Positions 366 through 12,198 of a stretch of DNA of 12,198 nt are shown here, in pieces. Both the position numbers and the translations under genes were made by a program. This DNA is from Isotricha intestinalis. Lineage: Eukaryota; Ciliophora; Litostomatea; Vestibuliferida; Isotrichidae. The DNA lies in assembly GCA_023807065.1 (NCBI GenBank), contig JAJJLU010004514.1, forward strand, positions 1 to 12,198, written 5' to 3'. The notes under the pieces were generated by a model. It saw only the letters and a list, made by a program, of their open reading frames with translations. It ran no database searches and was not told the origin of the DNA. How positions within the stretch are numbered: the first letter of the stretch is position 1; every line of letters starts with the position of its first letter.

Positions 366-1115
366 TTACTCGAATATAATTTCATAAATTTCAACTTCTT
401 TAAGTTCAATATCATCATCATCTTTATTATAATATAAATCTTTATCATTTAAAAAAGAATATTGATTTGATTTATAAGAATAACAAATTTTCATATTTTT
501 TTCAAAATATAAATCATTACGTCCAAACCAAGGACCACAATCTTGATCAACATAAATATCTTTATTATCATTTAAATATTTTTTTTTAAATTTGATATTT
601 TTATTTAAACCAAATAAAAAAGTTTGACCATCAAATTTATTTGTCCATTTACCATCCCATGTACAAGTTGTATATCCTCCAAATTTTTGGCCATTAATTG
701 ATTCTATTATTATTAATGTTGGACTTTTATTATTACATTTTTCATGAAAAGTTTTAAATGATTCTCCATCTCTTGATAATCTATATAATAAATTTGCTTT
801 TATAAATGATGTTTTATTTATCCAATTTTTTAAAGATATTTTATATTCTTTTATATTGTTTATTATATGAGAATCTAATTGAATTCCTTTTTCTTTTTGT
901 TCTTTATTTTTTGCTTTTATAATATTTTTCTGTTTTTGAGGTTTTATTAATAAATTTTGCTTATATTCTAATAGTGATATTTTGCTTTTTAATGTTGATA
1001 TTTCAAGATTTAAATTATTTAACTTATTTAATTCTTTTTTTAAACAATTATTTTCATTTTCTAATTTATTTATTTTTTCTGTATGACTTTTTAAAATATT
1101 CAAAATGTTACTCAT
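366..1115 (-). CDS. Coiled-coil TLDc domain protein
   Basis: Intact 249-codon gene starting at ATG (1113-1115) and ending in TAA (366-368). Residues about 5-55 are a Leu/Ile/Lys/Glu/Asn heptad-like stretch that should form a coiled coil. A short Lys/Gln-rich linker follows. From about residue 95 to the end the pattern fits the TLDc domain (Tre2/Bub2/Cdc16, LysM-associated, catalytic): LLYRLSRDGESFKTFHEKCN, then GGYTTCTWDGKW, FLFGL, DCGPWFGRNDLYF and a closing acidic beta strand EVEIYEIIF. The GGY and CGPxFG-like motifs are the key signature. TLDc proteins such as OXR1 and NCOA7 are linked to oxidative-stress resistance and V-ATPase regulation in animals and fungi. Coiled-coil-TLDc proteins of this short form are expanded in several protists, where their role is unknown. 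The coding strand contains a 9-A run (T9 at 579-587) that stays in frame, a useful control for the broken neighbours. Confidence 0.85.
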   Translation of the reverse strand: MSNILNILKSHTEKINKLENENNCLKKELNKLNNLNLEISTLKSKISLLEYKQNLLIKPQKQKNIIKAKNKEQKEKGIQLDSHIINNIKEYKISLKNWINKTSFIKANLLYRLSRDGESFKTFHEKCNNKSPTLIIIESINGQKFGGYTTCTWDGKWTNKFDGQTFLFGLNKNIKFKKKYLNDNKDIYVDQDCGPWFGRNDLYFEKNMKICYSYKSNQYSFLNDKDLYYNKDDDDIELKEVEIYEIIFE

Positions 1116-1267: not shown

Positions 1268-1800
1268 TTAATTATTAATAATGGAATGAACTGTAGAATT
1301 CTTAGAACCAACACTTAGAGTTCTTTTAGGTGATATTATTTTTCTATCATCATCATCACAAACAGTATAGTCTATACAAGTATAAACACCTTCAACAGTA
1401 AAACAATCCTCATAAGATTCTTCTTTAATTTGATATATTTCTTTATTATATTGATAAGGTTCAAAATTAGTAATTGTAGTTAAATTAATATCAGTCGATT
1501 TTGTATTAAAATCAACATTCATTGTATAATTAACATTATTAACTTCTACTTCTAAAGCCTCAACAATTCTTCCACATCCATTTAATGTATTTATCACATC
1601 AAAATTAATTTTTTTTTGGTCTATTTTGATTAACTATATTAATTTTAACATTTGGTTTTTTTATTCCATCATCTTCAAATTCTAAATCATATTTAAATTT
1701 TGTCTGTTTTGTCATATTAAATATTTTATAATCAACTGATATTATTTGATTTTGATTTCCAACAACATAAGTATTTTGTTTTTCTTCTTGAGCAATTTCT
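1268..1800 (-). other. C-terminal beta-rich, cysteine-containing domain of the giant protein
   Basis: After the helical region, the last 170 or so residues change character. Alternating hydrophobic residues suggest beta strands (KFKYDLEFED, VKINIVNQN, EALEVEVNNVNYTMNVDF). Cysteines appear in NGCGR, EDCF and YTCIDYTVCDDDD. The piece after the shift at the A9 run (1609-1617) ends in TAA at 1268-1270. It may be an independently folded cap. I do not recognise the family. Confidence 0.45.
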
Positions 1801-4800
1801 AATTCTTCTTTATTAAATGGTTCTACTTCTTTTGATATTAAATTATATTTATCTGCAAATGTAATATAAGTTATATTTGCATATTCATTTAAATAATTAT
1901 TAATTTCATTAATTGATTCGATTAAATAATCTTTTACTCTATAATAACTTTCATTTATTTGTTCATAATAATCTAAAGTTATTTGTTTTAAATATTCTAA
2001 TTTATTATCTAATACATTTAATATTTCTTCTTCATAATCATTATCTAAAATTCTATTTTTTGATACAATATATGCCGAATTTGCTTTATTAATATATTTT
2101 GTTATTAATTAATCAAATCATCAAATTTTTCATAAGAATTTATAAAATTTTTTGTATTATTTGAAGACTTTAATAAATTTTTAAATGTATCATCTATTGT
2201 TTTATCTGCAATTTTTTCTTGATTTATTAATTCAATTTCTTCTTCTGTTAAAAGTCTTTGATGTAATCTTCTATTTCTTTCATTTTGTCTTATAATTTCA
2301 TTTTCCAAATTATCTGGATAATCATTTTTTCCATATGAATTAATATTTTCTTTCATTCCATCAATATAATTAGTTTTAAATGCTAAATATGAATTATTTG
2401 AGTTTAGAATAAACTCTCTTAAATTAAAATATTCTTCATAATTATGACAATTTTCTTCAATATTTAATATTATTGCATCTTTTGTTGCTTCATCTAAAAT
2501 ATCTATTAATGATTTATAAAATGGTTGAATTTGAGTTTCTCCATAATAATTTAAATAATCAATTAATCCATTTGATATTTTAAATGTATTAAAATGATTA
2601 TTAAACTTTTCAATTGAATTTAAAGTATTATTCATTTTGGTGTTGATATCATTTAATACAGTATCGGGTTCTATTACAAATAATCATCAAGTTGTGCTTT
2701 TAAACTTTCTCTTTGATTTTTAATTACTCTAATCATTTCATTTGTTTTTGAATTCATAACATTTGAATATGAAGTAATTAATTGTTCTTTAAAATATTTA
2801 TTTAATGTTGAAATATAATCATTTTCAATTCCTTCTTGAACTAAATTCATATTTTGTTTTATTTTTTCATTTATTATTTCATTGAAATTTGATTCAATTG
2901 AAGTATCTGATTCAATCATTGTTTTGCTTTACAATAAATTCTTTAGAATCAATAATAAAATCATCTACTTTTGTTTCTAATAAATCTAAAACTTGTTTAT
3001 TTTTATTGTCTACAATAGTATCTAAATTATTTAAACTAAATATTTTTAATTTTAAATCTTTTGTTAAAGATGAAATTCTTGATGACTTACGTAAAAAGAG
3101 ATAATAGGTTAATGTTTCCACTAAAGAAAATTTTAAATTATTATATAAACTTGATATTTTGAAATTTTCATTATAATTTATTATTCTTTCAAAGAAATTG
3201 TTTCCAAATGAAGGAATTATATTATTTAACAAATTATTGAAATTTGATTTAATTATATTTTGTAAAATTTTATTAAAATTATTCTCTTCAATTTTTTTTG
3301 AGCAACAATAAATTCATCAAAACTATTTTTAATATTATTAAGTACATCTTGATTTACAAGAGAAAAATCTAAAATTTCCCATACTATAATATCAAGTTCA
3401 ACTTGAAAATTATTTCCTTTTGTTGTATCTAAAATTTTTGGAATTTCATTAATTTTTAAATTTATTGTAGATTCAATTTCATTTCTTATTTCATTACTTA
3501 AATCATATTTATTATATCCAGCATCACCAGAATTATATTGTTCAATTTCTTTTAAACTTAAATATAGAGTTTTATTGTATCCTTCAGATATTTCATTGTT
3601 AGTTAATTTTTGTAAATCATCTAAATTAACTTTATGTTTAATTTTTGAATGAAAATCATTATATTTAGAATCTATTTTTAATTGAGTAATACTTTTATAT
3701 TCATTTACATAATTATCAATAATATTATCAACAATTTTTATATAAAGAATTTAATAATTTTACTTCTTCATATTTTGATGTATATTTTTTTGATTCAATT
3801 ATATATTCATTTAAATCATTTTCAATGTAATTTTTATATACTTCATTAATCATATTTTGATGAAAATCATCAATAATTTTAAATACTGCAGATTCTAATT
3901 TATTAAAAATTGCTTTTTTATAATCATTTAATCTATTTTCTATTTGTGAATAATCTTTATTATATGAATCTGCAGAATTAACAAGTCTTTCTGCTTCTTT
4001 TGATAAATGTTCTTTTATTTTATTTAATATTTCTATTACTTTTTGTTTTATTGTTACAACTTGTTTGTTATCTAAATCTTTAACTTAAGATTTATATAAT
4101 TCATTTATTCTATTTTCTAATTCTTCTTTAGTAAAATAACGCGTTATTTGATTTTCTAATTTTTTAGAAAAATCTTCTTTCAAAGTTTCAAATTCTTTTC
4201 TAATTGCTATATTAGAATTATATAAAGTTATATTTAAAGTATTTATAAATTCATCTTGATCAAATATCCAATTATCTATCAATAATTGTTTAAATTTTTC
4301 AAGATTTAAATAAATAAATACTTTTTGATTTATTTGCTCATAAAATTCTTCAATTTCTTTTCCACTTATTGAATTTTCTAAATAAAATCTTGATGTAAGT
4401 GATATTTCATTATTAGCTTTTTTATTAGTAAGTCCTGAAAGATTTCTTATTTTAGTTGTTAAAGAATTATTTAAATTGAAAATATTATCTGATAAAATAT
4501 TATTTATTTTAAAGAAATTTGATTTTGAAACTTGAAGAACTCTAATTTGATTATCAAAAGATAAAGAATCATTTTGATAATTTTTAATATTTTGAATAAT
4601 AGAAGTAAATAAATTATTAACATCATTTTTTCTTTGATCAAGAATATCATTAAAAGCATTTTTATTTGTTGGTAAATTATTAATAATAAATTGATGAGTT
4701 GATTGAACAAATTTGATTAAAATATTATAATAATAATTAATAGTATAATTATATTCACTTTTTTGATGAGTTTCAATTGAATCAACATAAATTCTTGAAA

Positions 4801-7800
4801 TATTTTGTACTATTATAGAACTATAAATTTGAGCTAAAGAACTAAATTCCATCATGGAATTTTTAAATTTATTCAAATCATTATTTGTTTCTTCATATAA
4901 TAAATCATATGCTTCATTCCATTTTGATGTTATATTATTAAGTAAATCTCCTATTATTTCTTCTGTATAATTTTGATAATAATTATATGAACTACTAATA
5001 ATTTCATTTTCATATTTTTCATTTAATATATTATTTATTCCAGTTTCAAGTAAAGAAAATCCATTTAAGACTATATTATCATTAAAAGTTTCTTTTTCTG
5101 TTAATGAAATAGAATCTTTAAAATCATTTATTTTTTTACTATAAGAATTTACTTTTTCATTAATTGATGTATAAAAAGAGTTAAATTTTTCATTAAAATT
5201 GATTAAATTTTCATCTGAATTAATTGTATGTTCAATTAATTTCATATGATTATTTGAAATATCTGGTGATGAAAAACAATAATAATCTGAATTTACTCTA
5301 ACAGACCAAACACTATTTACACAAAGATAAGTTTTTTTTCTTTCAAAAGTAACACAAAATTCATTATTTTGAGCATTGACAGTATTTTTCTTATTTAGAA
5401 TTTTATCATTTTTATCTTCAATATAACTATATACATTTAAAATATCTGTATTTTTTTTAGATTGATAATCTTTTCTCCTACATATTTAGTATTAAATATA
5501 TTATCAGATATATAAGTATTAATTCTATCATATAAAGAATCAATATTTTTAATATGATCATTAATAAATGATAATTCTTCTATATCCAAATATTTATCAT
5601 TTAATTTATTTTTTTTAAATTTTTGTAATACTTCTCTAATTTGAGTTATAGGTTTTTTATATAATGATAATAAATATTTATATAATTGATTTTTAATATA
5701 TTCTTGAGATTTAGCAAAATTGTTTTTATATATTTGATATTTTGTTTTATATCCTGTAGTTATTGATTGAGATGTTATTGAATCTTCAAAATATTGTAAT
5801 GTAGTATAATGTTTTGGATCATAATTTGTTACTTTTACTAAATGTGCATCATCTGTATGATAATTACTTAATAATTCTTTAATTTTTGTTTTATTATTGA
5901 CTATTTCTTCTAAATTATTAAAATAATTATTTGTTAATAATGTATTTTTTTCTAATTCTTTATTTATTTTATCTAAACAACTAGAAAATGCTTTCTCATA
6001 TAAATTTGCTAATTCTTCTAAATTTTCTGAGAATAATATAATTATATCTGAAGTTAAACTAAATAAATATTCCTTATTGTCTAATAATTTATCAATTTCT
6101 TGTTTTACTTTATCTAAATAATCTTCATTTTCATTTTTTATTTTATTTAAAATATTAACACCAAGATTAGATATATTAGTTTCAATATTACTTATTTCTC
6201 TTTCACTTAATAAATTTTGACTTAATACATTTTCATTTAAAGTAAATAATTCTTCTTTTTTCATATCCATATATTTTATTATATTAATATAATTTTCTCT
6301 AAAATTGATCATTATTTCATCAAATATTTTATCAATATATTCATCATTATCTAAAATTTTTGCAATACTTAATGAACTTTGAATAATATCATAAAAAGAA
6401 TTATTATTTGAACATATATCATAATTTGATATCAAATATCCACTATCTTTTATTTCCATTTCTTTTATTATTTTTTCTTTTATCTTACTTACAAAATCAT
6501 TAATAGAATTTTGAATAAAATATAAATTATTCAATAGTTCTTCATAATCTTTATCATCTGCTCTATCAATAGTAAAGTTTTTATTTTCAATATTTCTATA
6601 TAAATTATCTATTATCTTTATTTCTTTTTGTAAATATTCAACTAAATTATCTTCAAATTTTTTAATCAAAGAATCAATTTGTGATTTTATTAAATTATAT
6701 TCTTATTTATAATAATTATTTAATAAATTTTCTGATTCTTGAATAGTTCCAATAAATGAATTTGGAATGTTATTTAAATAATAAGTTGAAATTTCTGCTA
6801 ATTTACTTTTATTTGAATTTAATGATTCAGATAATTTTTTAAGATTATCAAAAAGTTCAATAATTATATCATGAGACTTTGTTGTATAATCATATATATC
6901 TTTATTTAAAACATTTATATTTTTTTTAATTCCTCCAATTTCAATTTCATTTAATAATTGAGATATTTTATTTTTTAAAATTGAACTTTCTTTAATTATA
7001 GAAATTGGTAACTTTTTAATATAATCTAAAGATAAAGTAGAATCAAAAATTTCTGAAAAATCTTTATATTTAACTAGATCATTTAAATTAGAAATAGTTT
7101 CATTAATTTCAAGAGTCATACTATCTAAAGTATTATTTATCTTTTGAAGTAATTCTGTTACCAAATGATTTCCTGCTTGAGATAAAACAATTAATTCATT
7201 AATTATTTTATTAATATTTAAAGAAGATTGTTTTGTAGTTTCAATATTTGTTTTATCATCTTCTATTTTTACATTACAAGTTGTTTCACAATATTCTGTA
7301 TTTAAACCTGAATCAATCATTAATCCCATATTAATACCAACACTCATTGAACTATCATGATTGAAAAAATCTTTTTGTACTGCTATTATATTTTGTTAAT
7401 TTTCTTTTTTTTAATTTATTATATTGTAAATGATCTCTTAATTGTTCTACTCCTTCTATACTAGCAATATACACTTCTTCATAATCTTCTTTTGAAAATA
7501 AAATATCAGTTTGAAAATAAGGTTCTAATTTTGGTAATAATTTATTTAAATTCTCTTCATATTTTTCATAATTAAAAGAAGTTACATTATTAGTTTCATC
7601 AACTAATTTTGTAATTTTAGTCTTTTTATATGAATTTTTATCATCATTTTCAACTTCCATAATAGCAATTTCTTCATATTCTAAAAGATTAAATTCTGAA
7701 TCAATTGTTGTATTCATATCAGTTGAACAAAAAGAAGTAAATGCATTTTCAATATCACAAATTCCTCCATTTTTTTCTCTTATAATTTGTTTATTATCAT

Positions 7801-8592
7801 CTATTTTAATATAATTAATTGTAATATTTGATTCTTCTTTATTTATTCTTTTTACTGCAGGTGGTCTAAAAAAATATAAATCTAATACTATCATTCTCTT
7901 TTTATGTTCTGGAATTAATTTATGACAAGTTATTGATGTAATTGCATCATTATCAGTTATATTAAAAAGACAAATTGGTATTGGAATATCTTTTAAATCA
8001 TTTATTTCTTTTTTATCTTTATTTTCATTATAATCTGGAGATGTTAAATCTACTAATTTTTTAGGAACACATGTTTCATTTTCTGTACTGTAACATTCAC
8101 TTACTATTGAAATTGCAGCAGTATATATTTTTTCATAATACTTTTTTTCATCACCTTTTGATTCTTCTTCTGATATAAAATATACATCATAATTTGTTAT
8201 TCTATTTAAAAATATTCTAGTTAAATTATTATTTATTATGTAATCTTCATAATATTTTTGATGGACATTAAGTCTTCTTAAATCATGAACATTTGTTTTA
8301 AATTTGTATTCATATTCTAATTTTTTCATTTCTGGTTCAAAAATATTTGGTTCTACAATAGTAGTATTATCACAATTTTCACATATTATTTCTGGAGATG
8401 GTGTTTTTTTATTTTTTCTTATAAAGTAGATTGAGGCAAAAAGTACTAAACCAACTACAATTGCAATAGTAATAACAATATTAATATTTCCTAATTTATT
8501 GGTTTTTTTATCAGTTGTTATATCATCCCCTATTGGAAAGTTATCTTGATTTTCAGTTCTACTTTCTCCATTACTATAAATAACAATACCAT
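1268..8592 (-). CDS. Giant single-pass membrane protein, helical Asn/Lys-rich, frame repeatedly interrupted
   Basis: One gene of about 2,440 codons, not recognised. The standard-code pieces are 7355-8592, 6703-7347, 5437-6669, 4085-5245, 2912-3232, 2674-2919, 2105-2635 and 1268-1597, and the parts between them also translate sensibly in a shifted frame. Reading into each gap gives an unbroken style of protein, so these are pieces of one gene rather than separate genes. Order from the N terminus: a 35-residue polar tail, a 22-residue membrane segment, a cysteine-containing region with CENC, then long helical Asn/Lys/Ile/Glu-rich sequence, a short aromatic/Cys patch near 5251-5370, more helical sequence, and a C-terminal beta/Cys domain (1268-1800). 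Many N-x-S/T sites occur, but Asn is so common that this says little about topology. The frame shifts lie near 7391, 5451, 3735, 3292, 2928, 2680, 2107 and 1609. In-frame TAA codons are at 6703-6705 and 4085-4087. The start is uncertain: ATG at 8590-8592 needs one extra base in the following G pair to join the frame. It may be a surface or adhesion-type protein by shape only. Decay, sequencing error and recoding all remain possible. Confidence 0.7.
1609..1617 (-). other. Frame break at an A9 run in the giant gene
   Basis: The upstream frame gives VNQNRPKK and then meets TAA. The continuing frame INFDVINTLNGCGR needs eight A instead of nine, so here the run is one base too long. Confidence 0.7.
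3292..3299 (-). other. Frame break at a second A8 run in the giant gene
   Basis: The coding strand reads GCTC, eight A, then TTG. The upstream frame gives FDEFIVAQKK. The continuing frame IEENNFNKILQNIIKSNF needs a ninth A. The same one-base shortfall is seen at 5451-5458. Confidence 0.75.
4085..4087 (-). other. Second in-frame TAA inside the giant gene
   Basis: The frame of 4085-5245 continues beyond TAA as VKDLDNKQVVTIKQKVIEIL and stays open for more than 100 codons to about 3740, with the same composition. The stop therefore interrupts one continuous coding sequence. Confidence 0.75.
5451..5458 (-). other. Frame break at an A8 run in the giant gene
   Basis: The coding strand reads CT, eight A, then TAC. 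The upstream frame dies 6 codons later, while the frame that would follow nine A continues smoothly (NTDILNVYSYIEDKNDK) into the next large segment. One A is missing relative to the continuing frame. Confidence 0.75.
6703..6705 (-). other. In-frame TAA inside the giant gene
   Basis: The reading frame of 6703-7347 continues without a shift beyond TAA as EYNLIKSQIDSLIKKFEDN and on through the next 400 codons. A single C-to-T change (CAA to TAA) would explain it, as would read-through or a sequencing error. Confidence 0.75.
7397..8419 (-). other. Membrane-proximal cysteine-containing region of the giant protein
   Basis: This part has a more varied composition than the rest of the giant gene and looks like a folded domain. 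Cysteines occur in CENC, SECYSTENETCVP, IPICLF, ITCHKL and GGICDIENAFTSFCS. A conserved-looking hydrophobic core surrounds MIVLDLYFFRPPAVKR. No known family was recognised. The even number and pairing of Cys would suit disulfides in an extracellular domain, which is an inference only. Confidence 0.5.
8420..8485 (-). other. Transmembrane segment of the giant protein
   Basis: Translating upstream of the Met at 8329 in the same frame gives a 22-residue hydrophobic stretch, INIVITIAIVVGLVLFAS followed by IYFI, and then RKNKK. It is preceded by a polar tail of about 35 residues with no second hydrophobic stretch, so it acts as an anchor rather than a cleaved signal peptide. Charges lie on both sides (DKKTNK before, RKNKK after), so whether the giant C-terminal part is outside or inside the cell cannot be decided by the positive-inside rule. 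The CENC motif follows about 12 residues after the segment. Confidence 0.8.
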
Positions 8593-8615
8593 TCAGATTT
8601 TATATATATCCTTTA

Positions 8616-8790
8616 CAAAATAAATTCTCTTTCTAATCACTACTTTTTTCATCTATGTAATAATTTAAAAAAAAAATTAATTTTTAATCTCTACTTTTTT
8701 AATCTATTTTTGAGTTTAAAAAAATAAATTCTTTTTTTAATCTTACTTTTTAATCTTTTTTATAATTTAAAAAAATAATATGTTGATTTT
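8616..8790. repeat. Three-copy degenerate tandem repeat, about 52 bases per unit
   Basis: Units begin at about 8635, 8686 and 8739. On the plus strand each starts AATC-x-CTAC or AATCTTAC followed by a T run and AATCT- or CATCT-like bases, then TTTAAAAAAA and AAATTCTTTTT. Part of a further unit precedes 8635. The array fills the gap between the giant gene's start and the hypothetical gene at 8760, and the third copy overlaps that gene's stop. It may contain the giant gene's promoter, but no element can be singled out. Confidence 0.6.
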
Positions 8791-9610
8791 AATGCATTTT
8801 TTAATTTAAATTGTATTTTATTTCTATTATTTCTACTTGTATTATTTTCTATATTACTATTTATTAAAGTTGAATTATTTCTTCTTTTTGGTATTTTTAT
8901 TTTTACATCTTCACTTTGTAATAAAACTTCATTGTAATATAATCTTGAAAATACATTATTTATATTTAATTTTATATCTGGTAAATCAACTTTTGATTCT
9001 TCAGTATAAAAAGGATCATTTATTAAATCTGTTTCATTTGTATTATCATCTATTACTATATTTCCTTTTAATGTCTTTAATTTTGCTCTTATTTTATCAA
9101 ATGATTTTCTAAAACCTTTTATTCTATTTTCTTTTATTATATCAAAATATGAATTTCTATCTCTATTCATTTCTCTTCTTAATATTGTTTCATTATTTTT
9201 TTTTCTAAATAATTTTTATAGTCATCTCTATTTTTTTTAAATGTATCTACTTTAGTTCTCATTTGTATATATGCTTCTCTTCTAATTCTTTTTTTTACTA
9301 CTGAACTTGGTTCATTTTTTTCTTTTATATTTTTATTTTTTTCATTTTTTGTTTCTAAAGATTTTTTAACTTGATGATATTTTTTTATTTCTGCTTTTGC
9401 GTTTGATGCATATAATATTTTTGTAAAGTTTCTATCTGTTAATACATCATCTATAAATATGTCTAATTTTTTCTTTGGAAGTACTTTTATTGCATTATCT
9501 CTTACTGGACGTACTTCTTTTAATAAATATTCATCATCTTCTTTTAAAAAACGAATGTCATCATATTTTGATTTTTCTTTATCTTTTTTCATATATTTTT
9601 GTCTTAACAT
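8760..9610 (-). CDS. Basic, coiled-coil-like hypothetical protein with one frame break
   Basis: Two overlapping pieces, 9179-9610 (143 codons from ATG) and 8760-9170, belong together. At the A9 run (T9 at 9196-9204) the first frame ends after LEKKIMKQY, whereas ten A would lead through NNETILRREMNRDRNSYF into the second piece, giving about 283 residues. The protein is very basic. It has an N-terminal Lys-rich start, a segment KVLPKKKLDIFIDDVLTDRN, a helical core IRREAYIQMRTKVDTFKKNR and a second helical part RIKGFRKSFDKIRAKLKTL, followed by an Asn/Arg-rich tail. The mixture of long basic helices resembles cytoskeletal or axonemal proteins in style, but I recognise no family. The alternative, two separate overlapping genes, is less likely because the second Met lies inside a continuing open frame. 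Confidence 0.6.
9196..9204 (-). other. Frame break at an A9 run in the basic hypothetical gene
   Basis: One A fewer than needed for the continuing frame. It is of the same kind as the breaks at 5451-5458, 3292-3299 and 10105-10113. Confidence 0.7.
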
Positions 9611-9722
9611 TTTTTATTTTATAAAGTTTGATTTTTAATTTTTTAATTTTTTTTTAAATAAATTTTTAATTATTTTTTTAGTTTAATTGAATTTATTTTA
9701 TTTTTTATTTTTTTTATTTTTT
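9611..9722. other. T-rich spacer between two minus-strand genes
   Basis: Almost only A and T, with repeated TTTTTATTTT-like runs. It lies between the TAA of the AIM24-like gene and the ATG of the basic hypothetical gene, and so holds one 3' end and one promoter that cannot be told apart. Confidence 0.5.
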
Positions 9723-10584
9723 TTAATTAGGATTAGGATTTATTTTCTTTGATATACTTGATATAAATAAATCGAAAAATGATAATATAATTATAATTAT
9801 TAATAAACTTAATAAAGTTTGCATTTTAAAAGGGATATTTTTTCTTTCATTTAATTCATAAATTAATAAACCAGGACCATTGCAAATTATATCATTATCA
9901 CAATTTAAATAAGTAGTTTTATTTTCTTGTGATTTTATTATTTTTGAAAATGTAATTGTATTTTCAAAAGCAATTAATTGATTTTTCATTATTATTATTT
10001 GTTCATTTGTTCCTAATCTTTTTTCTACTAAATTTTTATTTGATGATATATATAAAAAATCTTTCATTAATGAATTAATATCTAATAATAATTTATCTAC
10101 TTCATTTTTTTTTGTATTTTTCTATTAAGTAAATAGTAATTTCTTTTTATATTATTTATATCTATTATTGAAAGACCATTTATATTTTCTTTTATTTTTT
10201 TATTTATTTCATTATCATTAATTAAATTTAATGATTCATTAAAACATAAAATACAATCTTCTCTTATAATTAAATCTTTATATAATAATGGATTAATTTT
10301 TATTATTTTTCCTAAATGTGATAATCCTATATATTCAATTGTATTATTTGTATTTTTTAATCTAATATAATTTGTATTATTTGCTTTATTATCATTTGAA
10401 TTTGAAATTAAATTATTTTATTATATTGTGTTTCTTGTAAATTCATTGAAGAAACATAAGATAAATAATTTGAATTAATAACTAAACTTTCATTATTTTT
10501 TAACACAACTTGCAAAGACTGTACTTCATTCCCAATAACACTTATACTAGGAAACTCAAAAGATGAACTTAACAAATTTTCCAT
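9723..10584 (-). CDS. AIM24-like protein with C-terminal membrane segment, two frame breaks
   Basis: ATG at 10582-10584 opens SFEFPSISVIGNEVQSLQVV followed by LKNNESLVINSNYLSYVSSMN. This matches the opening of the AIM24/TIGR00266 family (a buried beta start, Q-x-L-x-V-x-L, then E-x-[LV] and a Y/M-S step). The first frame stops at TAA 10408-10410. One missing A just before it restores NSNDNKANNTNYIRLKN and IEYIGLSHLGKIIKINP, then DLIIREDCILCFNESLNL, again typical of the family's beta repeats. A second break is the A9 run at 10105-10113. The last piece (9723-10067) ends with MQTLLSLLIIIIILSFFDLF, a membrane segment, then a short polar tail ending in TAA. The joined length would be about 287 residues. 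In yeast, Aim24 supports mitochondrial inner-membrane organisation. Bacterial homologues are uncharacterised, and a C-terminal anchor is not a feature I know for the family, so the location here is open. Confidence 0.65.
10105..10113 (-). other. Frame break at an A9 run in the AIM24-like gene
   Basis: The upstream frame gives YYLLNRKIQKKMK and a TAG stop. Ten A would give KKNEVDKLLLDINSLMKDF and run on into the membrane-anchored C-terminal piece. Confidence 0.7.
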
Positions 10585-10684: not shown

Positions 10685-11608
10685 AAAAACTCTGGAAAAC
10701 CAATTTTTTCAAATTCACCTAATAAAGCAATTTGGGGTGTTTTATTAGAAAAAGCTTGGGCGAAAGTAAATGGTGGTTATTGTAATATTTTTAATGGGAA
10801 TTCTAAAAATGTTTTTAAAACTTTTACTCCTTTTTCTACTATTGAAATTGAAAATTGGGATAATAAATTTAATGAAAAAGATAATTTTAAATTATGGAAA
10901 AATATTAAAGATTCTAATGATAATAATTGTATTATTACTTGTACTATTAAATTAAATAATCCTGATGTTGTTAATTTTGGATTAGAATATGATTGTACTT
11001 ATTGTGTTATTGATTGTGAGGAATGTATAATAAATAGTGAAAATGTTAAGTTAATTAAATTAAAATCCCCTTTTGGTGAATTTAATTGGAATGGAGATTG
11101 GAGTTATCAATCATTAAAATGGAATGATAAAAGTAAAAAATCATTTAAATTTTATGATGAAAGTAAGAAAAAGGAAGGAGTTTTTTATATGGAATATAAT
11201 GATTTTATTAAATATTTTCAAATTAATACTTTTTGTATTCCTTTAACTTCAATTAAATCATCTTCATTTAAAGTTTCTAAAGAAAATGCAAAATTATTTA
11301 ATGTAATGAAAATAAATATATTATCAAAAGGTATAATAACATTTACAATAATTAAAAAAAATTCAATATTTCATAAAAAAATTGAACCTGGAAAATTACC
11401 TTCAGAAAATGGACTTTTAGTAAAAATAGAAGGAAAAAAATTGAAACATATTGAAAGTTCATTTAATCAACCATTAACAACAAGTTTACATGAAGGAGAA
11501 TATATTTGTATATATTATATTGATTATGAAAGTATTAATTCTCAAATTAGAAAATATACAGTTGATATTTCAAGTTGTGTTGACTTTAAATTTAAAGAAA
11601 TGAAATAA
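10685..11608 (+). CDS. Calpain-like core fragment (PC2 plus CBSW), catalytic residues lost, 5' truncated
   Basis: A frame open for 307 codons between TAA at 10682-10684 and TAA at 11606-11608, with no in-frame ATG before 11189. It opens GKPIFSNSPNKAIWGVLLEK and AWAKVNGGY, the calpain stretch (family C2) that links protease-core halves PC1 and PC2. The PC1 half with the catalytic Cys is absent. In PC2 the G-H-A-Y-x-V motif reads YDCTYCVID, so His is replaced by Cys104 (10994-10996). The R-N-P-W-G motif reads LKSPFGEFNWNGDWS, so Asn is replaced by Ser128 (11066-11068). The conserved FxMxxxDFxxYF stretch (FYMEYNDFIKYF) and a beta-rich CBSW/C2-like domain follow. It is therefore almost certainly not a protease. 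It may be a pseudo-calpain binding partner or a 5'-truncated copy. An A8 run (11354-11361) stays in frame and the whole frame is intact, which argues against long decay. The true start is missing or uses a non-ATG codon or an upstream exon I cannot see. Confidence 0.75.
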   Translation, partial: KNSGKPIFSNSPNKAIWGVLLEKAWAKVNGGYCNIFNGNSKNVFKTFTPFSTIEIENWDNKFNEKDNFKLWKNIKDSNDNNCIITCTIKLNNPDVVNFGLEYDCTYCVIDCEECIINSENVKLIKLKSPFGEFNWNGDWSYQSLKWNDKSKKSFKFYDESKKKEGVFYMEYNDFIKYFQINTFCIPLTSIKSSSFKVSKENAKLFNVMKINILSKGIITFTIIKKNSIFHKKIEPGKLPSENGLLVKIEGKKLKHIESSFNQPLTTSLHEGEYICIYYIDYESINSQIRKYTVDISSCVDFKFKEMK

Positions 11609-11768: not shown

Positions 11769-12198
11769 TTAATGTTTCCACACTATTACTATTTTTTTAT
11801 CTTTACAATTTAAAGAAGTTAAAGAAGAACAACCAATAAACATATTACTCATATTACTCATATTAATAACATTATTAGTATTAAAATTAGATAAATTTAA
11901 AGAAGTTAAAGAAGAACAATTAGAGAACATATTACTCATATCTTTAACATTATTATTATTAAAATTAGATAAAGTTAAAGAAGTTAAAGAAGTATACCAA
12001 GAGAACATATTACTCATATCTTTAACATTATTATTATTAAAATTTATTAAATTTAAAGAAGTTAAAGAAGAACAATAATAGAACATATTACTCATATTAT
12101 TAACATTATTAGTATTAAAATTAGATAAATTTAAAGAAATTAAAGAAGAACAACCAGAGAACATACCATTCATATTATTAACATTATTAGTATTAAAA
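11769..12198 (-). CDS. BspA/DUF285-type leucine-rich repeat protein, C-terminal part (partial)
   Basis: The frame is open from the right edge to TAA at 11769-11771. It consists of 26-residue repeats with the consensus MSNMF-x-x-CSSLTSLNLSNF followed by N-T/N-N-N-V-x-x, the signature of the DUF285 (PF03382) BspA-like surface repeat. Five repeat starts are visible, spaced 78 bases apart where regular (about 11925, 12003, 12081, 12159), with a six-base MSN duplication in the last unit. The protein ends abruptly after the last repeat with CKDKKIVIVWKH and no membrane anchor. Proteins of this type are secreted or surface-exposed in bacteria and have spread by lateral transfer into several microbial eukaryotes. 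The ATG at 12171-12173 is inside a repeat, and the same frame continues to the edge, so the true start lies outside the window. Confidence 0.85.
   Translation of the reverse strand, partial: FNTNNVNNMNGMFSGCSSLISLNLSNFNTNNVNNMSNMFYYCSSLTSLNLINFNNNNVKDMSNMFSWYTSLTSLTLSNFNNNNVKDMSNMFSNCSSLTSLNLSNFNTNNVINMSNMSNMFIGCSSLTSLNCKDKKIVIVWKH
11838..12198 (-). repeat. 78-base tandem coding repeats of the DUF285 gene
   Basis: Near-identical copies of a 78-base unit containing GAACATATTACTCATAT on the plus strand recur at 78-base steps, differing mainly at the two residues after MSNMF and in the final loop. The high DNA identity suggests recent expansion or gene conversion. Confidence 0.8.

Follow-up and report, generated by a model that had tools for sequence, protein, structure and literature searches.

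A frame-broken copy of a gene for a giant, predicted type II membrane protein in a litostomatean ciliate, with a head predicted to resemble animal lipid carriers

A giant gene in nine pieces

The window analysed here is the whole of contig C1950 (12,198 bp), from an assembly of 57.3 Mb in 2,153 contigs, and its GC content is 13–21% in 600-base steps. It carries on the minus strand a giant, broken gene of a family of ciliate membrane proteins. P0005, a full-length metagenome relative of 2,450 aa, matches the window in nine collinear minus-strand high-scoring segment pairs (HSPs) that run from 8566 to 1271 (tblastn), span residues 27–2450 of P0005 and are each 66–78% identical to it (mean 71%). 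The broken copy was also recovered when two paralogues from the same genome were used as tblastn queries. The reading frame switches at all eight HSP junctions, and in the P0005 search each HSP meets or overlaps the next, leaving no extra sequence between them. The N-terminal open frame starts at 8599 and the terminal stop codon is at 1268–1270, in agreement with the coordinates given in an earlier first-pass annotation of this DNA. In-frame stops are present at 6703–6705 and 4085–4087, with one more at 2109–2111 inside a junction, and the first in-frame start codon (ATG, GTG or TTG) is found only at 8329. As it stands, the window copy encodes no continuous protein. The features of the locus are as follows (all minus strand).

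1268..8599, minus: entire broken giant gene in nine pieces with eight frame changes (tblastn, open pieces, in-frame stops)
8486..8599, minus: N-terminal tail, predicted to be cytoplasmic, lacking an in-frame start (charge around the membrane segment, 62 of 69 members)
8417..8485, minus: predicted single membrane helix, model residues 39–61 (model; one hydrophobic segment in 66 of 71 proteins)
7589..8317, minus: six-cysteine beta domain, model residues 95–337, a predicted barrel (five strands, helix, five strands) of the N-sheet type of large lipid transfer proteins (LLTPs)
7868..7909, minus: predicted helix between the strand sets, model residues 231–244 (model, hhalign with a non-significant score, family alignment)
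1827..7588, minus: long, mainly helical body rich in Asn, Lys and Ile (composition, periodicity, partial model)
5251..5370, minus: aromatic/Cys patch within the helical body, with Cys 1098, 1109 and 1125 of P0001 (family alignment)
1268..1826, minus: predicted C-terminal beta domain, cysteines less conserved (P0091 model, family alignment)

Intact paralogues and the wider family

The paralogues on C1592 and C1908 have unbroken frames of 2,483 and 2,492 codons (2,464 and 2,471 residues when counted from the initial Met), in a single frame with the standard code and with no need of introns. Because these paralogues read the protein in one unbroken frame, the pieces in the window represent neither chance similarity nor eight genes, and almost certainly derive from one protein of one gene family. 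The genome carries at least two paralogues: a DNA search with window positions 1268–4000 hit 24 places, of which the three long ones were the window itself and the two paralogues, and the N-terminal 414 residues, used as a protein query, again listed these three (8 candidates scored).

Among approximately 5.8 billion predicted metagenome proteins, 88 relatives of the C1592 protein were found at E ≤3.4e-97 (7,991 candidates scored), with identities of 28 to 97%. The median length of all 88 is 2,432 residues, and 69 have at least 2,300 and so extend through the breaks seen in the window, which provides the full-length homologues that the first-pass annotation had proposed to look for. That annotation had also proposed one giant protein continuous through the window; the intact paralogues and long relatives bear out the single protein, but continuity in the window fails on the eight frame changes, two stops and absent start. 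In a tree of 77 tips (the window piece and 76 proteins of at least 2,100 residues), the window copy groups with P0005 as its sister (support 1.0), and all three own-genome copies fall inside one 8-tip clade (0.999). Together these genes make up a litostomatean (gut-type) ciliate family that encodes predicted type II membrane proteins some 2,450 residues long. The relatives P0003–P0090 lie mostly on contigs of about 7.2–8.4 kb that barely exceed the gene, for which transcripts, AT-rich breakpoints and small chromosomes are candidate causes.

The only name carried by any of the 88 relatives is 'hypothetical protein' (P0059), and P0059 is also the sole carrier of a precomputed Pfam domain, PF01442. 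A Pfam scan of the window pieces and paralogues gave nothing above family cut-offs, and a sequence search of the PDB gave no significant match. Weak Pfam names on window pieces (Bacillus_HBL, BAR_3, LOR, SKA1 and others) were dropped, as they fall short of the cut-offs and are not repeated in the paralogues. A literature search, which left out most subscription papers, gave no paper on this protein family among those listed.

Membrane anchor and anatomy

Hydrophobic segments were counted in 71 full-length proteins (the 69 long relatives and both paralogues): 66 have one, three have two and two have none. The first segment starts within the first 200 residues in 69 of the 71 (median start residue 43), and in 62 of these 69 the flank preceding it has the higher net charge, with means of +3.5 before and −1.7 after the segment. 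The hydropathy thus predicts a type II single-pass protein, with one uncleaved N-terminal segment and its positive side in the cytoplasm.

Cysteine conservation was assessed in an alignment of 24 of 90 sequences. The barrel cysteines of P0001 at 193, 201, 234, 249, 305 and 315 are kept in 24, 24, 24, 24, 23 and 24 of the 24, respectively. In the aromatic/Cys patch, Cys 1098, 1109 and 1125 are present in 20, 23 and 24, followed by five later cysteines in 15–21, and the four in the C-terminal domain are kept in 15–19. The hydrophobic periodicity of the helical body is about 97 degrees (2,040 windows), the value of ordinary amphipathic helices. A heptad coiled coil (102.9 degrees) as the main form of the body is unsupported by this periodicity, the intended control having yielded 0 usable windows in 11 stretches. 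The last 514 residues of the mostly helical body were modelled in P0091, and the C-terminal domain (residues 518–697) has ten strands in the same model (pLDDT, the predicted local distance difference test score, 79.9; whole-model pTM, the predicted template modelling score, 0.39).

Several structural leads were rejected. Membrane-attack-complex and Vip3 matches had template modelling scores (TM-scores) of ≤0.10, two hits in a viral structure library (E <0.001) had TM-scores of ≤0.11, and hhalign gave no support to the N- and C-terminal beta domains being copies of each other. The earlier proposal of a single-pass protein with a short tail, one membrane segment, a Cys region, a helical part and a C-terminal beta/Cys domain is upheld by the paralogues, relatives, models and family alignment, and the Cys patch that it placed near 5251–5370 is confirmed by the alignment.

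State of the window copy

The first-pass annotation described a hidden gene at the locus; the copy is broken rather than working. It is probably broken in the organism, and not merely in the assembly, and recently decaying. On the window branch, the ratio of first-and-second to third-position changes is 0.78 (0.66–0.93) across the 2,339 codons that align with both paralogues, compared with 0.69 and 0.74 on the intact branches. NG86 dN/dS values in the three pairs are 0.60, 0.62 and 0.56, with dS probably underestimated at this base composition. Loss of constraint is not detectable on the window branch, and there is no sign of long neutral decay.

A second allele bears on the question. P0130, a protein of 440 residues from a 6,115-bp contig of another assembly, was found with the window piece 4088–5485 as protein query and is identical at 363 of 372 residues to window 4852–3737 and at 64 of 66 to window 3738–3541 (97–98%). 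It reads through the window's stop at 4085 and the break at about 3738, yet stops where the window frame continues. Since 440 codons fill just part of 6,115 bp, P0130 must end at a break rather than at the contig edge on one side or both, which makes it a broken allele as well, but at other positions. Among the shorter proteins (19 of the 88 relatives have fewer than 2,300 residues), end positions were compared with the window breaks for P0130 only. The counterparts of the intact copies are long, with P0003 97.5% identical over 2,447 residues and P0007 96.6% over 2,233.

A competing account, which we consider rather improbable, attributes the frame changes and stops of the window copy to errors of assembly in a gene that works. 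The constraint kept on the window branch is in its favour, and several of the window breaks lie, by eye, within or beside A or T runs. Next to it on this contig, two gene candidates (8763–9613 and 9726–10584, minus strand) are, by eye, split by three like frame changes in A runs, which weighs against decay in the organism and favours assembly error for part of the lesions. A Pfam scan of the pieces of these two candidates gave no match. However, two in-frame stops and an absent in-frame start are atypical of run-length errors, at least two of the breaks are multi-base by eye, and the contigs of the paralogues hold 7.4-kb frames without a break. P0130 is itself a fragment in another assembly, whereas the counterparts of the intact copies are long.

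Ciliates are known for reassigned stop codons, and Euplotes for frequent frameshifting, but it is highly improbable that the cell bridges real frame changes here through introns, reassigned stops or programmed frameshifting, a reading already contradicted for the family: each paralogue holds this protein in a single intron-free frame, the HSPs leave nothing between them, and reading TAA and TAG as Gln fails to unite pieces whose breaks are mainly frame changes. Stop reassignment and introns were ruled out on the same grounds, the paralogues being open in the standard code. The standard code is also reported for Muniziella cunhai, a gut ciliate of the same group (PMC11316547).

Predicted fold of the head

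A model of window 7391–8599 (403 residues, from a 31-row alignment) has a mean pLDDT of 81.0 and a pTM of 0.71. In order, it contains the membrane helix (39–61), five strands (107 to 226), a helix (231–244), five further strands (259 to 334) and then helices. A Foldseek search of the PDB gave as best matches MTP (E 1.6e-7), a bacterial haemophore (8.7e-6) and lipovitellin (1.5e-5), each with probability 1.00, followed by MHC class I with probability ≤0.41. With VIA-align, the top six of 998 chains were all LLTPs: lipovitellin (14.1), honeybee vitellogenin (14.0 and 13.9), apolipoprotein B-100 (apoB-100; 13.2 and 12.0) and MTP (12.5). These alignments cover 201–225 residues at a root-mean-square deviation of 3.9–4.7. 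The seventh match was a type VI secretion cargo protein (9.0), and an autotransporter barrel, RseB/MucB and LolA-type folds came next.

The model shows the N-sheet beta-barrel with a helix between strand sets that is a feature of LLTPs, and the barrel likely has an LLTP-type fold. In LLTPs an alpha-superhelical domain comes directly after the barrel, and A and C sheets at the C-terminus line a lipid cavity; behind the barrel of the ciliate protein, the model stops at residue 403 and the LLTP alignments at 367–382. The similarity is taken as a real resemblance in fold, though of a predicted model. The first-pass annotation had described the protein as unrecognised; this stands for the sequence, but the N-terminal Cys region has a predicted LLTP N-sheet barrel.

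A divergent subfamily (P0074, P0076–P0087), mostly 28–30% identical to P0001, has an II-x-AF-type helix where the other members carry the segment LDLYFFRPP at the barrel helix. When these members were aligned with hhalign, this helix (NIKNDIINAF in P0084) was set on the apoB helix NIKRGIISAL, the NIKRG helix of LLTPs, with a non-significant score. It is the helix between the strand sets of the model. P0089 and P0090 depart from the NIKNDIINAF-type pattern in the family alignment.

Host genome and neighbourhood

Of 32 contig ends examined, comprising 20 contig starts chosen arbitrarily and 12 other ends, five carry the repeat (CCCCAAT)n in two or more units: C244 (L034), L039, L040, L044 and L046; a sixth (L043) was seen by eye and is uncounted. 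Within L012–L037, of which L018–L037 make up 199,577 bases, the only (CCCCAAT)n match is one of those ends. The same telomere repeat is reported for M. cunhai and called typical of Litostomatea (PMC11316547). The long frames of the assembly are open in the standard code. Telomere and genetic code place the host among the litostomatean ciliates, probably those of the gut. With lengths of 12–44 kb, the telomeric contigs point to macronuclear chromosomes that carry several genes.

Downstream of the giant gene, window 369–1115 (minus strand) encodes an intact TLDc-domain protein of 249 residues (Pfam TLD, E 9.8e-23). DUF285-type leucine-rich repeats (E 3.7e-22) at 11772–12197 (minus strand) are truncated by the contig end. 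An open frame of 307 residues at 10685–11605 (plus strand), which looks calpain-like, has no Pfam match at E 0.01 over 11189–11608. Upstream of the C1592 paralogue, which has an FKBP-type gene as neighbour, there is a long low-complexity AT-rich repeat (C1592:14400–17527 (L014), approximately 1395–3128) that reads as Leu/Ile/Tyr-rich frames.

Possible function

LLTPs transport lipids in animals. Taken as a whole, a tentative interpretation is that the window holds a decaying copy of a type II family with an LLTP-type head that serves exoplasmic lipid handling. The tail would be cytoplasmic, and the body would be outside the cell or in the secretory or endocytic lumen. The exoplasmic part is predicted to comprise the Cys-bearing barrel, about 1,850 residues of mostly amphipathic helices and the C-terminal beta domain. 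Barrel and helices could bind lipids and pass them on as in animal LLTPs, but tethered to the membrane rather than secreted. Lipid handling as the main function is possible, though somewhat more doubtful than not.

Several results weigh against this interpretation. The query TM-scores are only 0.35 for MTP and 0.36 for lipovitellin, and the haemophore, at 0.18, was equally given probability 1.00. Pfam searches with P0001 and P0002 (E 1) and with P0003 (E 10) gave no LLTP family, a PDB profile search up to E 10 gave four chains and no LLTP, and hhalign of the family N-domain against four LLTPs gave a probability of ≤0.3, a four-sequence test too weak to exclude homology. LLTPs are soluble, and the giant ciliate protein is anchored. 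The helix periodicity suits any globular helical protein, and the structural matches of the C-terminal domain are weak and mixed.

Reference searches indicate how such sequence tests are to be read. In hhalign, LLTPs against three other LLTPs reached probabilities of 82 and 91, but single against single only 3 to 22. When N-domains of LLTPs, verified against the PDB, served as queries, those of MTP and honeybee vitellogenin found no other LLTP and that of apoB found lipovitellin at E 0.038; single-sequence searches are therefore not decisive. The divergent members scored 15.4 against all four LLTPs, compared with ≤13.2 for column shuffles (39 of 50 yielded a score), and the best score was 16.1, against apoB plus lipovitellin. 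In a Pfam search with 20 members, Apolipoprotein A1/A4/E was matched by three (best E 9.1e-5) and ApoLp-III by one, among the 25 of 54 families listed. Homology to LLTPs is not established at the sequence level.

The alternative, put forward in the first-pass annotation as a candidate surface or adhesion role, is that the giant protein acts at the cell surface or in adhesion, or belongs to the pellicle or extrusomes. The helical body would then be a long spacer holding the end domains away from the membrane, and the barrel a ligand-binding or structural head whose LLTP-like fold is unrelated to lipids. This is conceivable but a little more doubtful still. Sequons are at the shuffled level (39.3 versus 38.1), the structural match to merozoite surface protein 1 (MSP-1) is under about 13, the tool's level for helical models, and the head is most like lipid carriers, above all other folds. 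Lipid handling is slightly preferred because of this resemblance of the head, although the difference in support is small. The predicted barrel fold speaks for lipid handling no less than for adhesion.

Comparison with known systems

MSP-1 of Plasmodium, in addition to its low match, has C-terminal attachment and no LLTP-type barrel. The bacterial RseB/MucB and LolA-type lipid-binding folds score clearly under the LLTPs in VIA-align and are small periplasmic proteins.

With LLTPs (vitellogenin/lipovitellin, apoB-100 and MTP) the family shares the predicted barrel fold. However, LLTPs are soluble and either secreted or lumenal, whereas the ciliate family has a membrane anchor, a helical part of about 1,850 residues, no LLTP sequence match and a ciliate host. 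The Vitellogenin_N profile of LLTPs was not found (Pfam with P0001–P0003; hhalign against the four LLTPs), and by hydropathy a soluble form with a cleaved signal peptide is replaced by one segment at median residue 43 behind a charged tail. As these two LLTP features, sequence profile and soluble form, fail, the family is not filed as LLTP, but it may work like one.

We know of no LLTP outside animals, where an LLTP-like head would be unexpected. A literature search, again leaving out most subscription papers, gave no paper on a protist LLTP among those listed, and the available part of PMC11077807 contains neither 'vitellogenin' nor 'lipid transfer'. In an unlikely case, the family would be a true membrane-anchored branch of LLTPs in ciliates, the barrel would predate animals or have crossed lineages, and giant tethered proteins would take up or move lipids at gut ciliate membranes in the manner of apoB or vitellogenin.

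For 88 metagenome proteins with no informative name, the analysis provides an anatomy. What appears to be new is a known fold, as predicted, in a membrane-anchored architecture and a new lineage, and a predicted barrel at the head of a giant ciliate family makes both an older origin of the LLTP fold and a lipid-handling system in gut ciliates testable.

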